Source: Terriglobia bacterium
GTDB lineage: Bacteria; Acidobacteriota; Terriglobia; Acidiferrales; UBA7541
NCBI GenBank assembly: GCA_020073605.1
Contig: JAIQEW010000011.1
Span: 1 to 64,000, forward strand
DNA: 64,000 bases
Direction: 5' to 3'
In this document: positions 23,168 to 27,511 of the stretch, in pieces
How positions within the stretch are numbered: position 1 is the stretch's first letter
Layout of the letters: every line of letters begins with the position of its first letter
Position numbers and translations under genes: made by a program
Notes under the pieces: generated by a model
Seen by the model: the letters and a program-made list of their open reading frames with translations, nothing else
Database searches by the model: none
Told to the model about the DNA's origin: nothing

Positions 23168-24546
23168 CATCGGACAAACCATCCATTTTGATCGTGGAAG
23201 ACGAGCAGAAACTCCGGCGTCTGATCGAACTACAGCTCGCCGACGACGGCTTTCACGCGCGCTCTGCGCCCGACGCAGAGACGGGCCTGCAACTCCTGAA
23301 CAAGGAGCCTTTCGACCTGGTCGTCACCGATTTCAAGCTGCCCGGCATGAGCGGCCTCGAATTCCTCCAGGCCGTGAAGCGCGTCGATGCGCACATGCCC
23401 GTCGTGATGATGACCGCTTACGGCACGGTCGAATCCGCGGTCGATGCCATGAAGGCCGGCGCCAGTGATTACGTGCTGAAGCCGTTCGCGCTCGCCGAGC
23501 TGGTCCTCGTGATCCGCAAGGAGCTGGCCACGCATCAGCTTCGCCGGGAAAATCGCGACTTGCGCGAAGCGCTCGGCCACCGTTACGAGTACAAGAACAT
23601 CGTCGCGCGCAGCGGCAAAATGCAGGCCGTGCTCGCAATCGTCGAGCGCGTCGCTCCCACGAATGCGACCGTGCTCCTCGGCGGCGAGAGCGGCGTGGGC
23701 AAGGACCTCATCGCGCGCGCGATTCACGAGCATTCGCAGCGCTCCTCGGGACCCTTCGTGAAAATCAACAGCACCGCCATCCCCGAAAATCTTCTCGAAA
23801 GCGAGCTCTTCGGCTACGAAAAAGGCGCGTTCTCCGGCGCCGTCGGCAGCAAGCCCGGAAAATTCGAGCTCGCGGACAAGGGCACGCTCTTCCTCGACGA
23901 AATAGGCGACGTGCCGCCGCCCATTCAAGTGAAGCTCCTGCGCGTACTCCAGGACCGCGAGTTCGAGCGCCTCGGCGGCACGAAAACGCTCAAGGTCGAT
24001 GTCCGCCTGATCGCCGCCACGAACCGCGATCTTCGCGCCGCGCTCGAAGACGGCACCTTCCGCCAGGATCTCTACTACCGCTTGAACGTGGTCGCCATCG
24101 ATATTCCGCCGCTGCGCGACCACAAGGAAGACATTCCCGCCCTCACTGATTTCTTCCTTGAGAAATTCGCGCGCGAATCCGGTCAGCAGGTCCGCGGAAT
24201 CACGCCGCAGGCCATGCGCCTGTTGACGGATTTTCACTGGCCGGGAAACGTGCGCGAGCTTCAGAATGTCCTCGAGCGCGCCGTCACGCTCTCCGCTGGA
24301 ACCACGCTCGATGTCTCCGACATTCACCTCGATAATCCGCCGTCGCGCGGCGCCGCGGCGGCTTCGCCCGTGCTGCCCGCGGGCATGACGCTCGAGCAGT
24401 GGGAAGACGAGATGATCCGCGAAGCCCTGCGCCGCGCGGGGGGCAACAAGAGCCAGGCGGCTCGCGCACTCGGACTTTCGCGCAACGCGCTGCGCTACCG
24501 CCTCTCGAAAATCGGCGTCCCCGACCCCGCAGAAGAAGATTCATAA
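23164..24546 (+). CDS. Sigma-54-dependent response regulator, NtrC family
   Basis: The 460-residue regulator has a receiver domain (phospho-acceptor Asp56 in VVTDFKLPG), an AAA+ domain (Walker A GGESGVGK at 173-180, Walker B LFLDEIGD at 242-249, arginine finger region in the FRQDLYYRLNV segment) and a Fis-type helix-turn-helix at the C-terminus (NKSQAARALGLSRNALRYRL). The sigma-54 contact loop reads GAFSGA (221-226) rather than GAFTGA; serine keeps the hydroxyl, so activity is expected. Its partner kinase is encoded just upstream. Targets are unknown; a sigma-54 promoter is present at 29604 in this window. Confidence 0.93.
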   Translation: MTSDKPSILIVEDEQKLRRLIELQLADDGFHARSAPDAETGLQLLNKEPFDLVVTDFKLPGMSGLEFLQAVKRVDAHMPVVMMTAYGTVESAVDAMKAGASDYVLKPFALAELVLVIRKELATHQLRRENRDLREALGHRYEYKNIVARSGKMQAVLAIVERVAPTNATVLLGGESGVGKDLIARAIHEHSQRSSGPFVKINSTAIPENLLESELFGYEKGAFSGAVGSKPGKFELADKGTLFLDEIGDVPPPIQVKLLRVLQDREFERLGGTKTLKVDVRLIAATNRDLRAALEDGTFRQDLYYRLNVVAIDIPPLRDHKEDIPALTDFFLEKFARESGQQVRGITPQAMRLLTDFHWPGNVRELQNVLERAVTLSAGTTLDVSDIHLDNPPSRGAAAASPVLPAGMTLEQWEDEMIREALRRAGGNKSQAARALGLSRNALRYRLSKIGVPDPAEEDS

Positions 24547-24663
24547 GACCAGCCGCCGTGGTGGGTCCGTTTGAAAACCGCATTCGTTTCCCAGAACGGA
24601 GCTTGGCCAATCAAGGCGAACTTGTCCTGTTAGCGCGATTATCAGGAGTTGGCTTGTTCCGAG

Positions 24664-24695
24664 AAAAAAAGAGGCGGCCCGGGGTGGGGGCCGCC
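24664..24695 (-). terminator. Strong intrinsic terminator (minus strand)
   Basis: GGCGGCCC (24673-24680) and GGGCCGCC (24688-24695) form an 8-bp all-GC stem with a 7-nt loop. On the minus strand it is followed by TC and then seven T (24670-24664). It faces away from the NtrC-type gene and lies about 350 nt beyond the stop of the next minus-strand gene. Confidence 0.85.
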
Positions 24696-24826
24696 CTAGT
24701 TAGTGCGTTCTCGGGAGGAAAGCCGCCTCAACGGTCGAGTCTTGTAGGGGAGCGTTTGGGGTCGTATTCGCTCTGCCGGTGCCCCTCCCGCTCAACGACT
24801 CATGTTGAGTGCTCGCTTCCTCCGTT
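24664..24826 (-). ncRNA. Candidate small RNA under CRP-like control
   Basis: A transcript from about 24826 to 24664 (about 163 nt) is predicted from a promoter with CRP-like sites and a strong terminator. It contains no frame longer than a few codons with a ribosome site. Visible folding: CTCAAC/GTTGAG hairpin near 24791-24809, GAGCG/CGCTC in the middle, and a GGAGGAAGC segment near the 5' end that can pair with GGCTTTCCTCC near 24717. It has C-rich stretches (CCCCTACAAG, TTCCTCCCG) that could pair with ribosome sites of target messages. It matches no RNA family I recognise (not 6S, SRP, tmRNA or RNase P). Existence and targets are inferred. Confidence 0.55.
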
Positions 24827-24832
24827 GTGCCT

Positions 24833-24897
24833 TTTGTAATCGTTTTGCCAGACGCGCGATGTGATCCTAGTCACATCGGGCTGTGATCCCCTTCACC
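24833..24897 (-). promoter_or_regulatory. Two CRP-like operators and -10 element of the small RNA
   Basis: TGTGATCCTAGTCACA (24860-24875) is a perfect TGTGA-N6-TCACA palindrome, the CRP/FNR-superfamily consensus. A second copy with one mismatch, TGTGA-N6-TCACC, starts exactly 22 bp away (24882-24897). On the minus strand a -10-like TACAAA (24838-24833) predicts a start at 24826, which puts the perfect site at -41.5 (class II position) and the second at -63.5. No other gene start lies near these sites: the NtrC-type gene ends upstream and the PQQ-barrel gene converges. Confidence 0.65.
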
Positions 24898-25039
24898 CGC
24901 CCACGCAGTGGCCGACGATCCCCCAAGAATGTGTCGGGCGCGGAGGGGCCTCTACGCGCAGTGCGTTACACGTCACTTCGCGATGGGGCGCACCGCTGAG
25001 CGCCAGTTACGCTCGAGTGACGGCGCGTCCGGATCGATC

Positions 25040-27121
25040 CTATTTGCCAGGCGGTTCGTTCTGTCCACCCTTCGGGGCAGCGGGTTCGACGATGATTTGC
25101 CCGTATACCCACGGATGCTCCTTGCAGATGTACGTGTACGTTCCCGGTTTGTCGAATTTGACTGTGCCGACGTCGAGAGGGCTAAGGGGGCCAGTCGACC
25201 AGGATCCGTCTTCCGCGACGATGGTGTGGGTCATCCGGCCGTTGTTTCTCCACGTGACTCGCGTGCCCACCTTGACCCGCGCGCGGAAGGGACTGAATTC
25301 GTACTCGTCCGTCATGTAGTGCGAGCCGGTGAGGCCTGCATCCCGCGCAAGCGAGGCGGTTTCGATGTTCGCCGTGTCGGTGATCGCTCCGGCAAAATCT
25401 TCCTGAGGCGCCATCGTCGGCGCCGGGCGCGCGGGAACAGTGCCTCCCAATTTGAAAGCCCACACGGCGCCGCCGACAACGGTGGCGATGTACTGCTCGC
25501 CGGCATTTTCAAACGTGATCGGCGGGCTTCCGCTGGGCGTGCCCGTTTGAAACTGCCAGACGAGGGATCCGTTGGCGGCGTCGTATGCTTGCATGTTGCC
25601 GTCGCCGGCCATCTGGAAAACGAGGCCTCCCGCAGTTGCCAGCGCGCCACTCGGGCGTTGCCCGTGAAATTCCTTCGTCCAGACAATCTTGTTCGTGCGG
25701 CTGTCCAGAGCGGCCAGAACGCCGTAGCTCAGTTTGTTCAGTCCCGGCACACGCCCGTTGAAACTGAGAGCAAAGAAAGCAGGATCATCGGCGCGCCGGA
25801 ACCACTGCAATCCCGCGTTGCCGGTCACATAAAAAAAGCGCGTCTGCGGATCAAACGCCATCGGCGTGGCGCGCATGCCGTAAACCGGGGCTATAACGTT
25901 CTCCTTCCCAAACGACGCGGGCGTGAAGAAACAGCCCAACTCGAAACCGCGGGGGAGCTGCTGCTTCTTCCAGTCGTCGCAATCGGGCAGGACGTGATCG
26001 GCGCCCACGGGATAGGGTTGCGTCGCCGCAGTTTTTTGGAACGCATCCTGCGGTACCCGCCGGTCTTCGATGCGCCCGAGTGGTTTTCCGGTGGCGCGAT
26101 CGAGCATGAAGAGATAGCCATCCGTGCGCATCGCTGCAATCGCCTTCCGGGATTGCCCGCTGATTTGCGCATCGAACAGCACGGGCGCTTCTGCGATGTC
26201 GGCTTCCCAGATGTCGTGGCGAATCACCTGATAGTGCCAGCGAAGCTTGCCGGTCTTGCTGTCGAGCGCGACGAACGAGCAGAGATAGAGATTGTCGCCC
26301 GGCCGGTTTTCACCGCCGTATTGCGGGACGCCGTTTCCGGTCACGTAAAATACCAAGCCCAGCTCCGGATCGGACGCTCCGACCAGCCAGACAGCGCCAC
26401 CGCCGCGCTTCCACGCGTTGTTCTTCGGCCACGTCTCCGACCCGGGTTGGCCCGGTGAGGGAATGACGAAGAAGCGCCACGCTTCGCGCCCGGTCTTCGC
26501 GTCGACGGCGACAATCTGGCCGCGATTTCCGTTGTCGCCATTCGTGCCGATCGATACCAATCCGTCTGCGTACAGGGGAGCGCCCGAGGGACCGCCTGTG
26601 GGGCTGCCCGCTGGATCGATAAGCGAAGTCTTCCATACAAGCTCGCCCGTCTTCTCGCGGAGCGCGATCAGATTCGAATCGGAAATCCCAACGAACACCA
26701 GACCCTCGCCCACTGCCACGCCTTCCCGCGCGGGTGAACCTGCGACGGGCGCGCCCGGTTCCGTGTCCGGCGCCAGCCGGTATTGCCATTCGACGCGGCC
26801 GGTAGAGATGTTGACGGCGGTGACGAACGGAGGCGCCGTCAGAAACAACAGTCCGTTGTCGATTACCGGCATGGCGCGAGACGAAGGTGGCGGTCCGACC
26901 TTTTCCGAGATCCACGCGGCTCCCAGCTTCGCGACGTTCTGCGAATTGATTTGCGTGAGCGACGAATATCGCGAGTTGCCGGAATCGCCGCCGACGGTCG
27001 ACCACTGGCCGGCGCTTTGTTGCGCCGTGAGAACCACCCCCGCGGCTACTGCGAGGATGGACGCTAAAACTCGCGCTCCTGAGCGTCTGCGTCCGCGCTG
27101 ATATCTCAGTTCGCCTTGCAT
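25040..27121 (-). CDS. Exported PQQ-type beta-propeller protein with cupredoxin domain
   Basis: The ATG at 27121 is chosen because AGGAGG lies 9 nt upstream. The 693-residue product has a signal peptide (about 10-38), an eight-bladed PQQ-dehydrogenase-like propeller (about 40-560; blades with W-Q-F-Q-T-G, A-L-D-S-R-T, YDAANGSLVWQF) and a C-terminal cupredoxin-like domain (about 595-680). Such proteins oxidise alcohols or sugars in the periplasm. The adjacent-Cys ring typical of methanol dehydrogenases is not seen. In the cupredoxin site His (MTHTIV), Cys and His (YICKEHPW) are present, but the position usually held by Met reads V-Y-G. The physical link between an oxidase-like domain and an electron-transfer-like domain suggests periplasmic oxidation. 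Substrate is unknown. Confidence 0.82.
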   Translation of the reverse strand: MQGELRYQRGRRRSGARVLASILAVAAGVVLTAQQSAGQWSTVGGDSGNSRYSSLTQINSQNVAKLGAAWISEKVGPPPSSRAMPVIDNGLLFLTAPPFVTAVNISTGRVEWQYRLAPDTEPGAPVAGSPAREGVAVGEGLVFVGISDSNLIALREKTGELVWKTSLIDPAGSPTGGPSGAPLYADGLVSIGTNGDNGNRGQIVAVDAKTGREAWRFFVIPSPGQPGSETWPKNNAWKRGGGAVWLVGASDPELGLVFYVTGNGVPQYGGENRPGDNLYLCSFVALDSKTGKLRWHYQVIRHDIWEADIAEAPVLFDAQISGQSRKAIAAMRTDGYLFMLDRATGKPLGRIEDRRVPQDAFQKTAATQPYPVGADHVLPDCDDWKKQQLPRGFELGCFFTPASFGKENVIAPVYGMRATPMAFDPQTRFFYVTGNAGLQWFRRADDPAFFALSFNGRVPGLNKLSYGVLAALDSRTNKIVWTKEFHGQRPSGALATAGGLVFQMAGDGNMQAYDAANGSLVWQFQTGTPSGSPPITFENAGEQYIATVVGGAVWAFKLGGTVPARPAPTMAPQEDFAGAITDTANIETASLARDAGLTGSHYMTDEYEFSPFRARVKVGTRVTWRNNGRMTHTIVAEDGSWSTGPLSPLDVGTVKFDKPGTYTYICKEHPWVYGQIIVEPAAPKGGQNEPPGK

Positions 27122-27511
27122 GGTATGAAGCCTCCTGTGATGGGAGCCGAACAAATCGTCTCTAATTTCGCCTCAAATCCCGGCGGACCGGGATGAGCAT
27201 ACCCCCGATCCTTACAAAAGCGAAAGTATCCTCTCGGCTGCCGTGAGCCGACTTTGTGAACTTCTTCCATCGCACGGCGATCGTATTTGATTTTCCGAGG
27301 GAATCCTGAAGGGACGTCCATTAGCCCACGCAGCATCGGGCTAAGGCCTGATAGGTCGGATAACCGGACAAATACCCTTCCAGTGCTCCACATGTCCGGT
27401 TAGGACGCTAATGAGGAGTTATCTCTGCTGAAGTCTCGTTTGGCAATTCCCTGCTTCGAGCACCCATTACGGGTGCACGTGTCAGTGGGTAGCCGTGGTT
27501 TGAAGAGCGGC
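27122..27511. other. Upstream region of PQQ-type gene with two inverted repeats
   Basis: No gene is well supported here; a 95-codon minus-strand frame (27106-27393) lacks coding character. Two perfect inverted repeats are close together: TTAGCCC/GGGCTAA (27321-27344, 10-nt loop) and TAACCGGACA/TGTCCGGTTA (27361-27402, 22-nt loop). There are no T-runs. They could form a structured end of the upstream minus-strand gene or operators of the PQQ-type gene. Confidence 0.5.

Follow-up and report, generated by a model that had tools for sequence, protein, structure and literature searches.

Comparable small RNAs in other bacteria

The DosR regulon contains Usp, nitroreductase and crystallin-like genes, and DosR is a response regulator which does not belong to the CRP/FNR family. 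DrrS (MTS1338) of M. tuberculosis is a DosR-regulated small RNA (sRNA) of this dormancy-type regulon; it is described as having no obvious intrinsic terminator and as being processed (PMC5360333). FnrS of E. coli is a free-standing sRNA of a low-oxygen regulon, activated under anaerobic conditions by FNR, a member of the CRP/FNR superfamily (PMC8139620).

The locus described here lies in the window, which is the whole stretch of 64,000 nucleotides of Terriglobia DNA that was analysed. As a prediction, its RNA is like FnrS in being free-standing and in having a CRP/FNR-superfamily activator and a low-oxygen type of regulon, and like DrrS in belonging to a dormancy-type regulon. It differs from FnrS in having no Rfam match, in its tandem operators and in its presence as two copies in one genome; its half-sites are of the CRP type and not of the FNR type. 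Unlike DrrS, the window copy and the second copy of the same genome, on contig C14, have intrinsic terminators.

Acidobacteriota abound in soil but are poorly represented in culture. The sRNA families listed for the phylum are few, four in the table of PMC9029176. PMC2864571 lists two structured noncoding RNAs for Acidobacteria, Acido-1 (RF01686) and Acido-Lenti-1 (RF01687), neither of which matches this RNA. The first-pass annotation, a reading of the letters of the window, had considered a CRP-family-regulated sRNA as new in this phylum. The phylum already has listed small RNAs, as just described; neither this RNA nor its twin operator turned up in a limited literature search. It appears to be a new small regulatory RNA gene with two copies in one genome.

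Layout of the locus

The features are listed in Table 1. Read on the minus strand, the distal operator is followed by the proximal one (TGTGA-N6-TCACA) at a spacing of 22 bp, by TACAAA, by about 163 nt of putative RNA and by a G+C-rich hairpin with its seven T. Both operators, the −10 element and the strong terminator are thus found as first annotated.

Table 1. Sequence features of the sRNA locus (positions in the window).
Feature	Positions	Strand	Description
Distal CRP-type operator	24882-24897	.	TGTGATCCCCTTCACC, 1 mismatch; GTGA-N6-TCAC kept in 4/4 copies
Proximal CRP-type operator	24860-24875	.	TGTGATCCTAGTCACA, perfect; kept in 4/4 copies, one half degenerate in G006
−10 element	24833-24838	-	TACAAA; TAnnnA common to four copies at this place
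Predicted small RNA gene	24664-24826	-	~163 nt; start placed from the −10 element; R1 matches in four copies
Conserved core	24749-24781	-	CACCGGCAGA...CGACCCCAAACGCTCC; by eye, the best-conserved part of the RNA across four copies
Intrinsic terminator	24664-24696	-	Stem 24696-24672 (9 pairs, 8 G-C), then seven T, CTTTTTTTCT

The distance between the centre of the proximal site and the −10 element is 29.5 bp in all four known copies, in a stretch which aligns without gaps. The proximal site would therefore be centred near −41.5, the class II position, if the start site is placed from the −10 element. The constant distance is compatible with the annotated value of "exactly −41.5"; the figure itself follows from the presumed start. 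A sigma-70 scan gave no match in the TACAAA region. Both this negative result and the fixed spacing are consistent with the predicted class II activation from about −41.5.

The PQQ-type gene had been described as converging. It does converge with the NtrC-type gene (plus strand, ending at 24546), but not with the RNA: it is on the minus strand and ends at 25040, leaving about 140 bp to the distal operator, and is therefore upstream of the predicted RNA promoter on the same strand. Its product, a PQQ-type beta-propeller dehydrogenase (25040-27154 in the window), has a C-terminal plastocyanin/cupredoxin domain. As to the statement that no protein gene explains the operators, two mechanical plus-strand frames do follow them (24861-25319 and 24908-26458, the latter largely antisense to the PQQ gene), but neither frame has a Pfam match or is kept by a codon-usage gene caller.

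Homologous copies

A BLAST search with positions 24650-24905 against the own genome (G000) and 60 relatives returned a second own-genome copy at C14:63766-64000 (72% identity, E 1e-24) and one in G018 (71% identity, E 6e-18); a 37-nt match in G049 was dropped for want of a match to R1, the covariance model of the three RNAs (window, C14 and G018). R1 covers the RNA without the operators, and it alone found a fourth copy, in G006, which ends at the contig end before the terminator. The operators of G006 therefore provide an independent check. In each of the four copies, two CRP-type sites lie with a spacing of 22 bp at one fixed distance from the −10 region; one half-site of G006 is degenerate.

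When 10 kb of window sequence was compared with the other contigs by blastn, the sole homology was at 24665-24896 for C14, 24678-24910 for G018 and 24741-24896 for G006. Between the window and C14, homology begins no more than one base from the outer edge of the operators and ends at the terminator. The neighbours differ: a Usp gene in G006, a CBS-domain gene in G018, and small frames without Pfam match in C14. Since homology is confined to the stretch from operators to terminator while the neighbours change, the conserved unit consists of the operator pair, the promoter and the RNA. The joint presence of these elements next to different genes suggests a real gene. The first-pass annotation had named, as the outcome that would count against it, operators lost where neighbouring genes are kept; the opposite is observed, and its core claim of a CRP-family-controlled minus-strand sRNA is supported by the sequences of the four copies.

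The copies are about 71-80% identical and have long invariant blocks in common. The RNA is most strongly conserved in the segment CACCGGCAGA...CGACYCCAAACGCUCC, which is kept in the window copy despite the loss of part of the apical pairing. A core search of a collection of genome contigs gave six stretches, two in Acidobacteriota (the G018 and G006 contigs) and four elsewhere, which were put down to chance (three have no R1 match, one scores 4.9 bits with E 7.9); viral contigs gave none.

The RNA is present in 3 of 20 genomes of the genus, G000 (twice), G018 and G006. R1 found no further match with E up to 0.001 in 399 genomes of the class, in a scan whose stricter filters lose some weak matches. 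G017, which is 96% complete and has 20 twin sites, has no R1 match at E up to 0.1. Four weak R1 matches were discarded: those in G019 and a second one in G018 align mainly at the terminator stem, one on the plus strand of G000 (21.8 bits) overlaps the C14 copy, and the fourth is in G008 (21.6 bits). The RNA looks lineage-restricted or fast-evolving, and much narrower in distribution than the twin operator it uses.

The twin-operator regulon

In the window, single sites with up to two mismatches are no more frequent than expected (14 against 15.5). In the own genome, perfect palindromes number 17, against one for the reversed control, and tandem 22-bp pairs with up to two mismatches number 26, against none; across the 20 genus genomes, the reversed control for tandem pairs gives 0 or 1 in each. 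When gaps of 0-30 are allowed, eight of nine exact pairs have the 22-bp spacing. In a sample of the class, exact tandem pairs occur in 77 of 299 genomes and total 179, and the control gives none throughout.

Among the 26 own-genome pairs, 24 were examined, namely that of the window and 23 in 21 regions (L009, L046-L065). A called gene start lies within 400 bp of 22 of the 23 sites, the site of the C14 RNA being counted by its neighbouring frames, and only two of the 23 lie inside a called frame, though called coding sequence makes up 85% of these regions. The distribution of the 22-bp operator pair indicates that it marks a regulon.

The 29 own-genome proteins scanned with Pfam were chosen by proximity to twin sites, and eight of them have no match. 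The genes placed so as to be driven encode Usp, HSP20, an S30AE hibernation factor and a cold-shock domain (second gene after the site), nitroreductase, phosphoribosyltransferase, carbohydrate phosphorylase, E1-E2 ATPase, OsmC, malate synthase and acyl-CoA synthetase. Others in the same position do not look stress-like (PEBP, LigA, B12-binding, TonB-type, hydrolase), and haem-binding, 2Fe-2S and permease proteins are also found there. Genes for a phosphoketolase, a PAS-sigma54 regulator and a glycosyltransferase adjoin sites but end before them. The G018 copy of the RNA is divergent to the CBS-domain gene, and that of G006 to the Usp gene. The stress part of this gene set is similar to known dormancy or low-oxygen regulons, that of DosR for example; the RNA has the same operator as these dormancy-type genes, among others.

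Candidate regulator

Five HTH_Crp_2 matches in the own genome exceed the family cut-off. One of the genes concerned, C11:27966-28682, has four twin sites of contig C11 within about 20 kb, and comparison with Pfam and the PDB assigns its product to the CRP/FNR family. Its recognition helix, SRETVTR, closely resembles the one in E. coli CRP. By eye, the N-terminus has a C-x2-C-x8-C motif, which may hold a redox cofactor; the homologue in G018 is without the second cysteine. A paralogue with a similar helix (ARETVTR) is encoded at C8:103866-104555; the acting protein may therefore be that of C11 or that of C8, and the likely regulator is one of the two.

Of the 20 genus genomes, 12 encode a homologue of the C11 regulator (E up to 1e-15). 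These 12 have 26, 15, 7, 1, 20, 19, 9, 6, 2, 19, 2 and 8 twin sites, whereas the eight genomes without homologue have 1, 0, 3, 1, 1, 1, 1 and 1 (one-sided Mann-Whitney p = 0.0005, kinship among genomes being ignored). G016, G007 and G014 have the homologue and just one or two twin sites.

In the region G000:C11:11000-34000, the four twin operators near the regulator gene are located at a Usp gene beside the phosphoketolase gene, at an unknown frame, at HSP20 and at the phosphorylase/E1-E2 ATPase pair.

RNA structure and targets

At the gathering cut-off, Rfam 15 detects nothing in this region, and two tRNAs elsewhere in the window. At a low threshold, the best sub-threshold match here is suhB (21.2 bits against 41), and the Rfam 6S models do not match. 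The RNAs of the window (z −3.58) and of C14 (z −3.92) are each predicted to fold more stably than all of 200 shuffles; for G018 (z −0.92), 37 of 200 shuffles are as stable. The best fold of the window RNA is a long irregular hairpin, and that of C14 is branched.

A shared branched fold, derived from C14, itself one of the compared sequences, pairs 92% of cells, and sliding the 3' partners lowers pairing to 38-53%. The covariance analysis proposed with the first-pass annotation did find homologous copies, but no compensatory base changes (0 double changes, with 9 further pair types). Pairing is no better than in column shuffles, and 364 of 500 shuffles reach the covariation score. As compensatory changes and an excess over column shuffles are both missing, the shared fold is plausible only.

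The C14 terminator has 10 pairs and the tail CTATTTTGCC. G018 has no recognisable terminator, and this might be because of a frame which overlaps the 3' end of the RNA (L103:1645-2028, minus strand, contig C196); by eye, this frame is like the start of an IS110-type transposase, and it has no Pfam match.

Two C-rich stretches had been proposed to pair with ribosome sites. One, CCCCTACAAG, is not conserved among the copies, and the other, TTCCTCCCG, is conserved in part, the remainder not. A scan for the complement of the core, with up to one mismatch, turns up 6 non-self sites, and the control yields 7. Duplex energies were also calculated between four conserved segments and 123 start regions; relative to simple shuffles, the mean differs by more than 0.3 kcal/mol for the CUUUCCU strand alone (−9.1 against −8.3), as expected of any stretch complementary to the Shine-Dalgarno (SD) sequence. 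What is left of the proposed pairing is this generic SD-like effect, beyond which the target searches show no enrichment above chance. Because they remain at chance level, an effect on targets is something that we infer. A match to the Hfq family is present in the own genome (33.5 bits against a cut-off of 27). GGA motifs in the RNA also suggested the idea of a CsrA sponge.

Alternative explanations

The same twin operator could drive a short mRNA for a small peptide. A 35-codon ATG frame in G018 has a similar counterpart in the same frame of C14 (NGSEQ.GTPAE..PTPNAPPT) and, in part, in G006; one frame of the window holds TPNAP, and a purine-rich GGAGG is found near the 5' end. This likeness of residues, however, follows from the conservation of the DNA. 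The small-protein reading was rejected, and we give it a very low probability, because the start codons are not shared (ATG in G018, GTG in C14, TTG in the window, whose sole ATG ORF has 3 codons), the G018 frame is interrupted by a stop in C14, and in G006 there are stops upstream and a frame shift caused by one inserted base. It is just as improbable that the transcript is the leader or attenuator of a downstream gene and not a free RNA. Downstream of the window RNA, the minus strand is antisense to the NtrC-type gene. In C14, a 71-codon frame on the same strand does start about 77 nt past the terminator, and a mechanical TTG frame of G018 (1726-2100) starts at the end of the RNA, but both frames are without Pfam match and blastn shows no downstream homologue common to these two copies.

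The patchy presence of the RNA, the unrecognisable terminator of G018 and the reduced apical pairing of the window copy would also fit a genuine CRP-type operator pair followed by a decaying RNA remnant without present function. Against this, copies with about 71-80% identity keep long invariant blocks and a fixed spacing between operator and promoter, and the homology to C14 stops at the edges of the unit; a remnant is, by a shade, the least probable of the alternatives. We consider with good confidence that the locus is a free-standing sRNA gene on the minus strand, class II-activated by a CRP/FNR-family protein via the twin operators, within a stress and low-energy regulon. Very probably, the sRNA gene is genuine and new, and its functional kind is a known one.

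Proposed mechanism and significance

The sequences themselves show the structure of the gene, its conservation, the enrichment of the operators, the genes found near them and the Hfq-family match. In the mechanism that we infer, from transcription, the direction of regulation and the identity of the regulator to the inducing signal and the targets, a CRP/FNR-family dimer with the RETVTR helix would bind the site near −41.5 and recruit RNA polymerase in class II mode. A second dimer, two helical turns upstream, would strengthen the activation. The free-standing small RNA would be transcribed from about 24826 to 24664 on the minus strand, alongside the stress and low-energy genes with the same twin operator. 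It probably acts by base-pairing, perhaps with Hfq, and would switch off mRNAs which are superfluous in that state.

The chances are about even that the RNA is the founding member of a new sRNA family and the RNA arm of a dormancy-like CRP/FNR regulon, whose 22-bp twin-operator code is spread through the class Terriglobia. The twin-operator regulon is the wider surprise: the operator pair makes it readable from genomes across the class. With a defined RNA, a promoter, a candidate regulator and a candidate set of co-regulated genes, the proposal is testable by reporter and binding assays.

Further sites and frames in the own genome

R2, a model of the promoter and the 5' half of the RNA, was run on 40 genomes and returned the four copies, a promoter-only match in the own genome (G000:C22:21077, 33.1 bits), a weak match in G010 (E 0.0033) and others with E of at least 0.09. 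The promoter-like match (G000:C22:21077-21135) covers the operator and −10 region without the RNA, and a 255-aa frame lies downstream of it. About 130 bp beyond the operator pair of the C14 RNA, another exact twin operator (G000:C14:64127-64162, or L009:4128-4163) precedes a divergent 104-aa frame without Pfam match. Near the C14 copy, a 338-aa frame (L009:1992-3008) has a C-terminal half which, by eye, resembles a Hint/intein-type domain.
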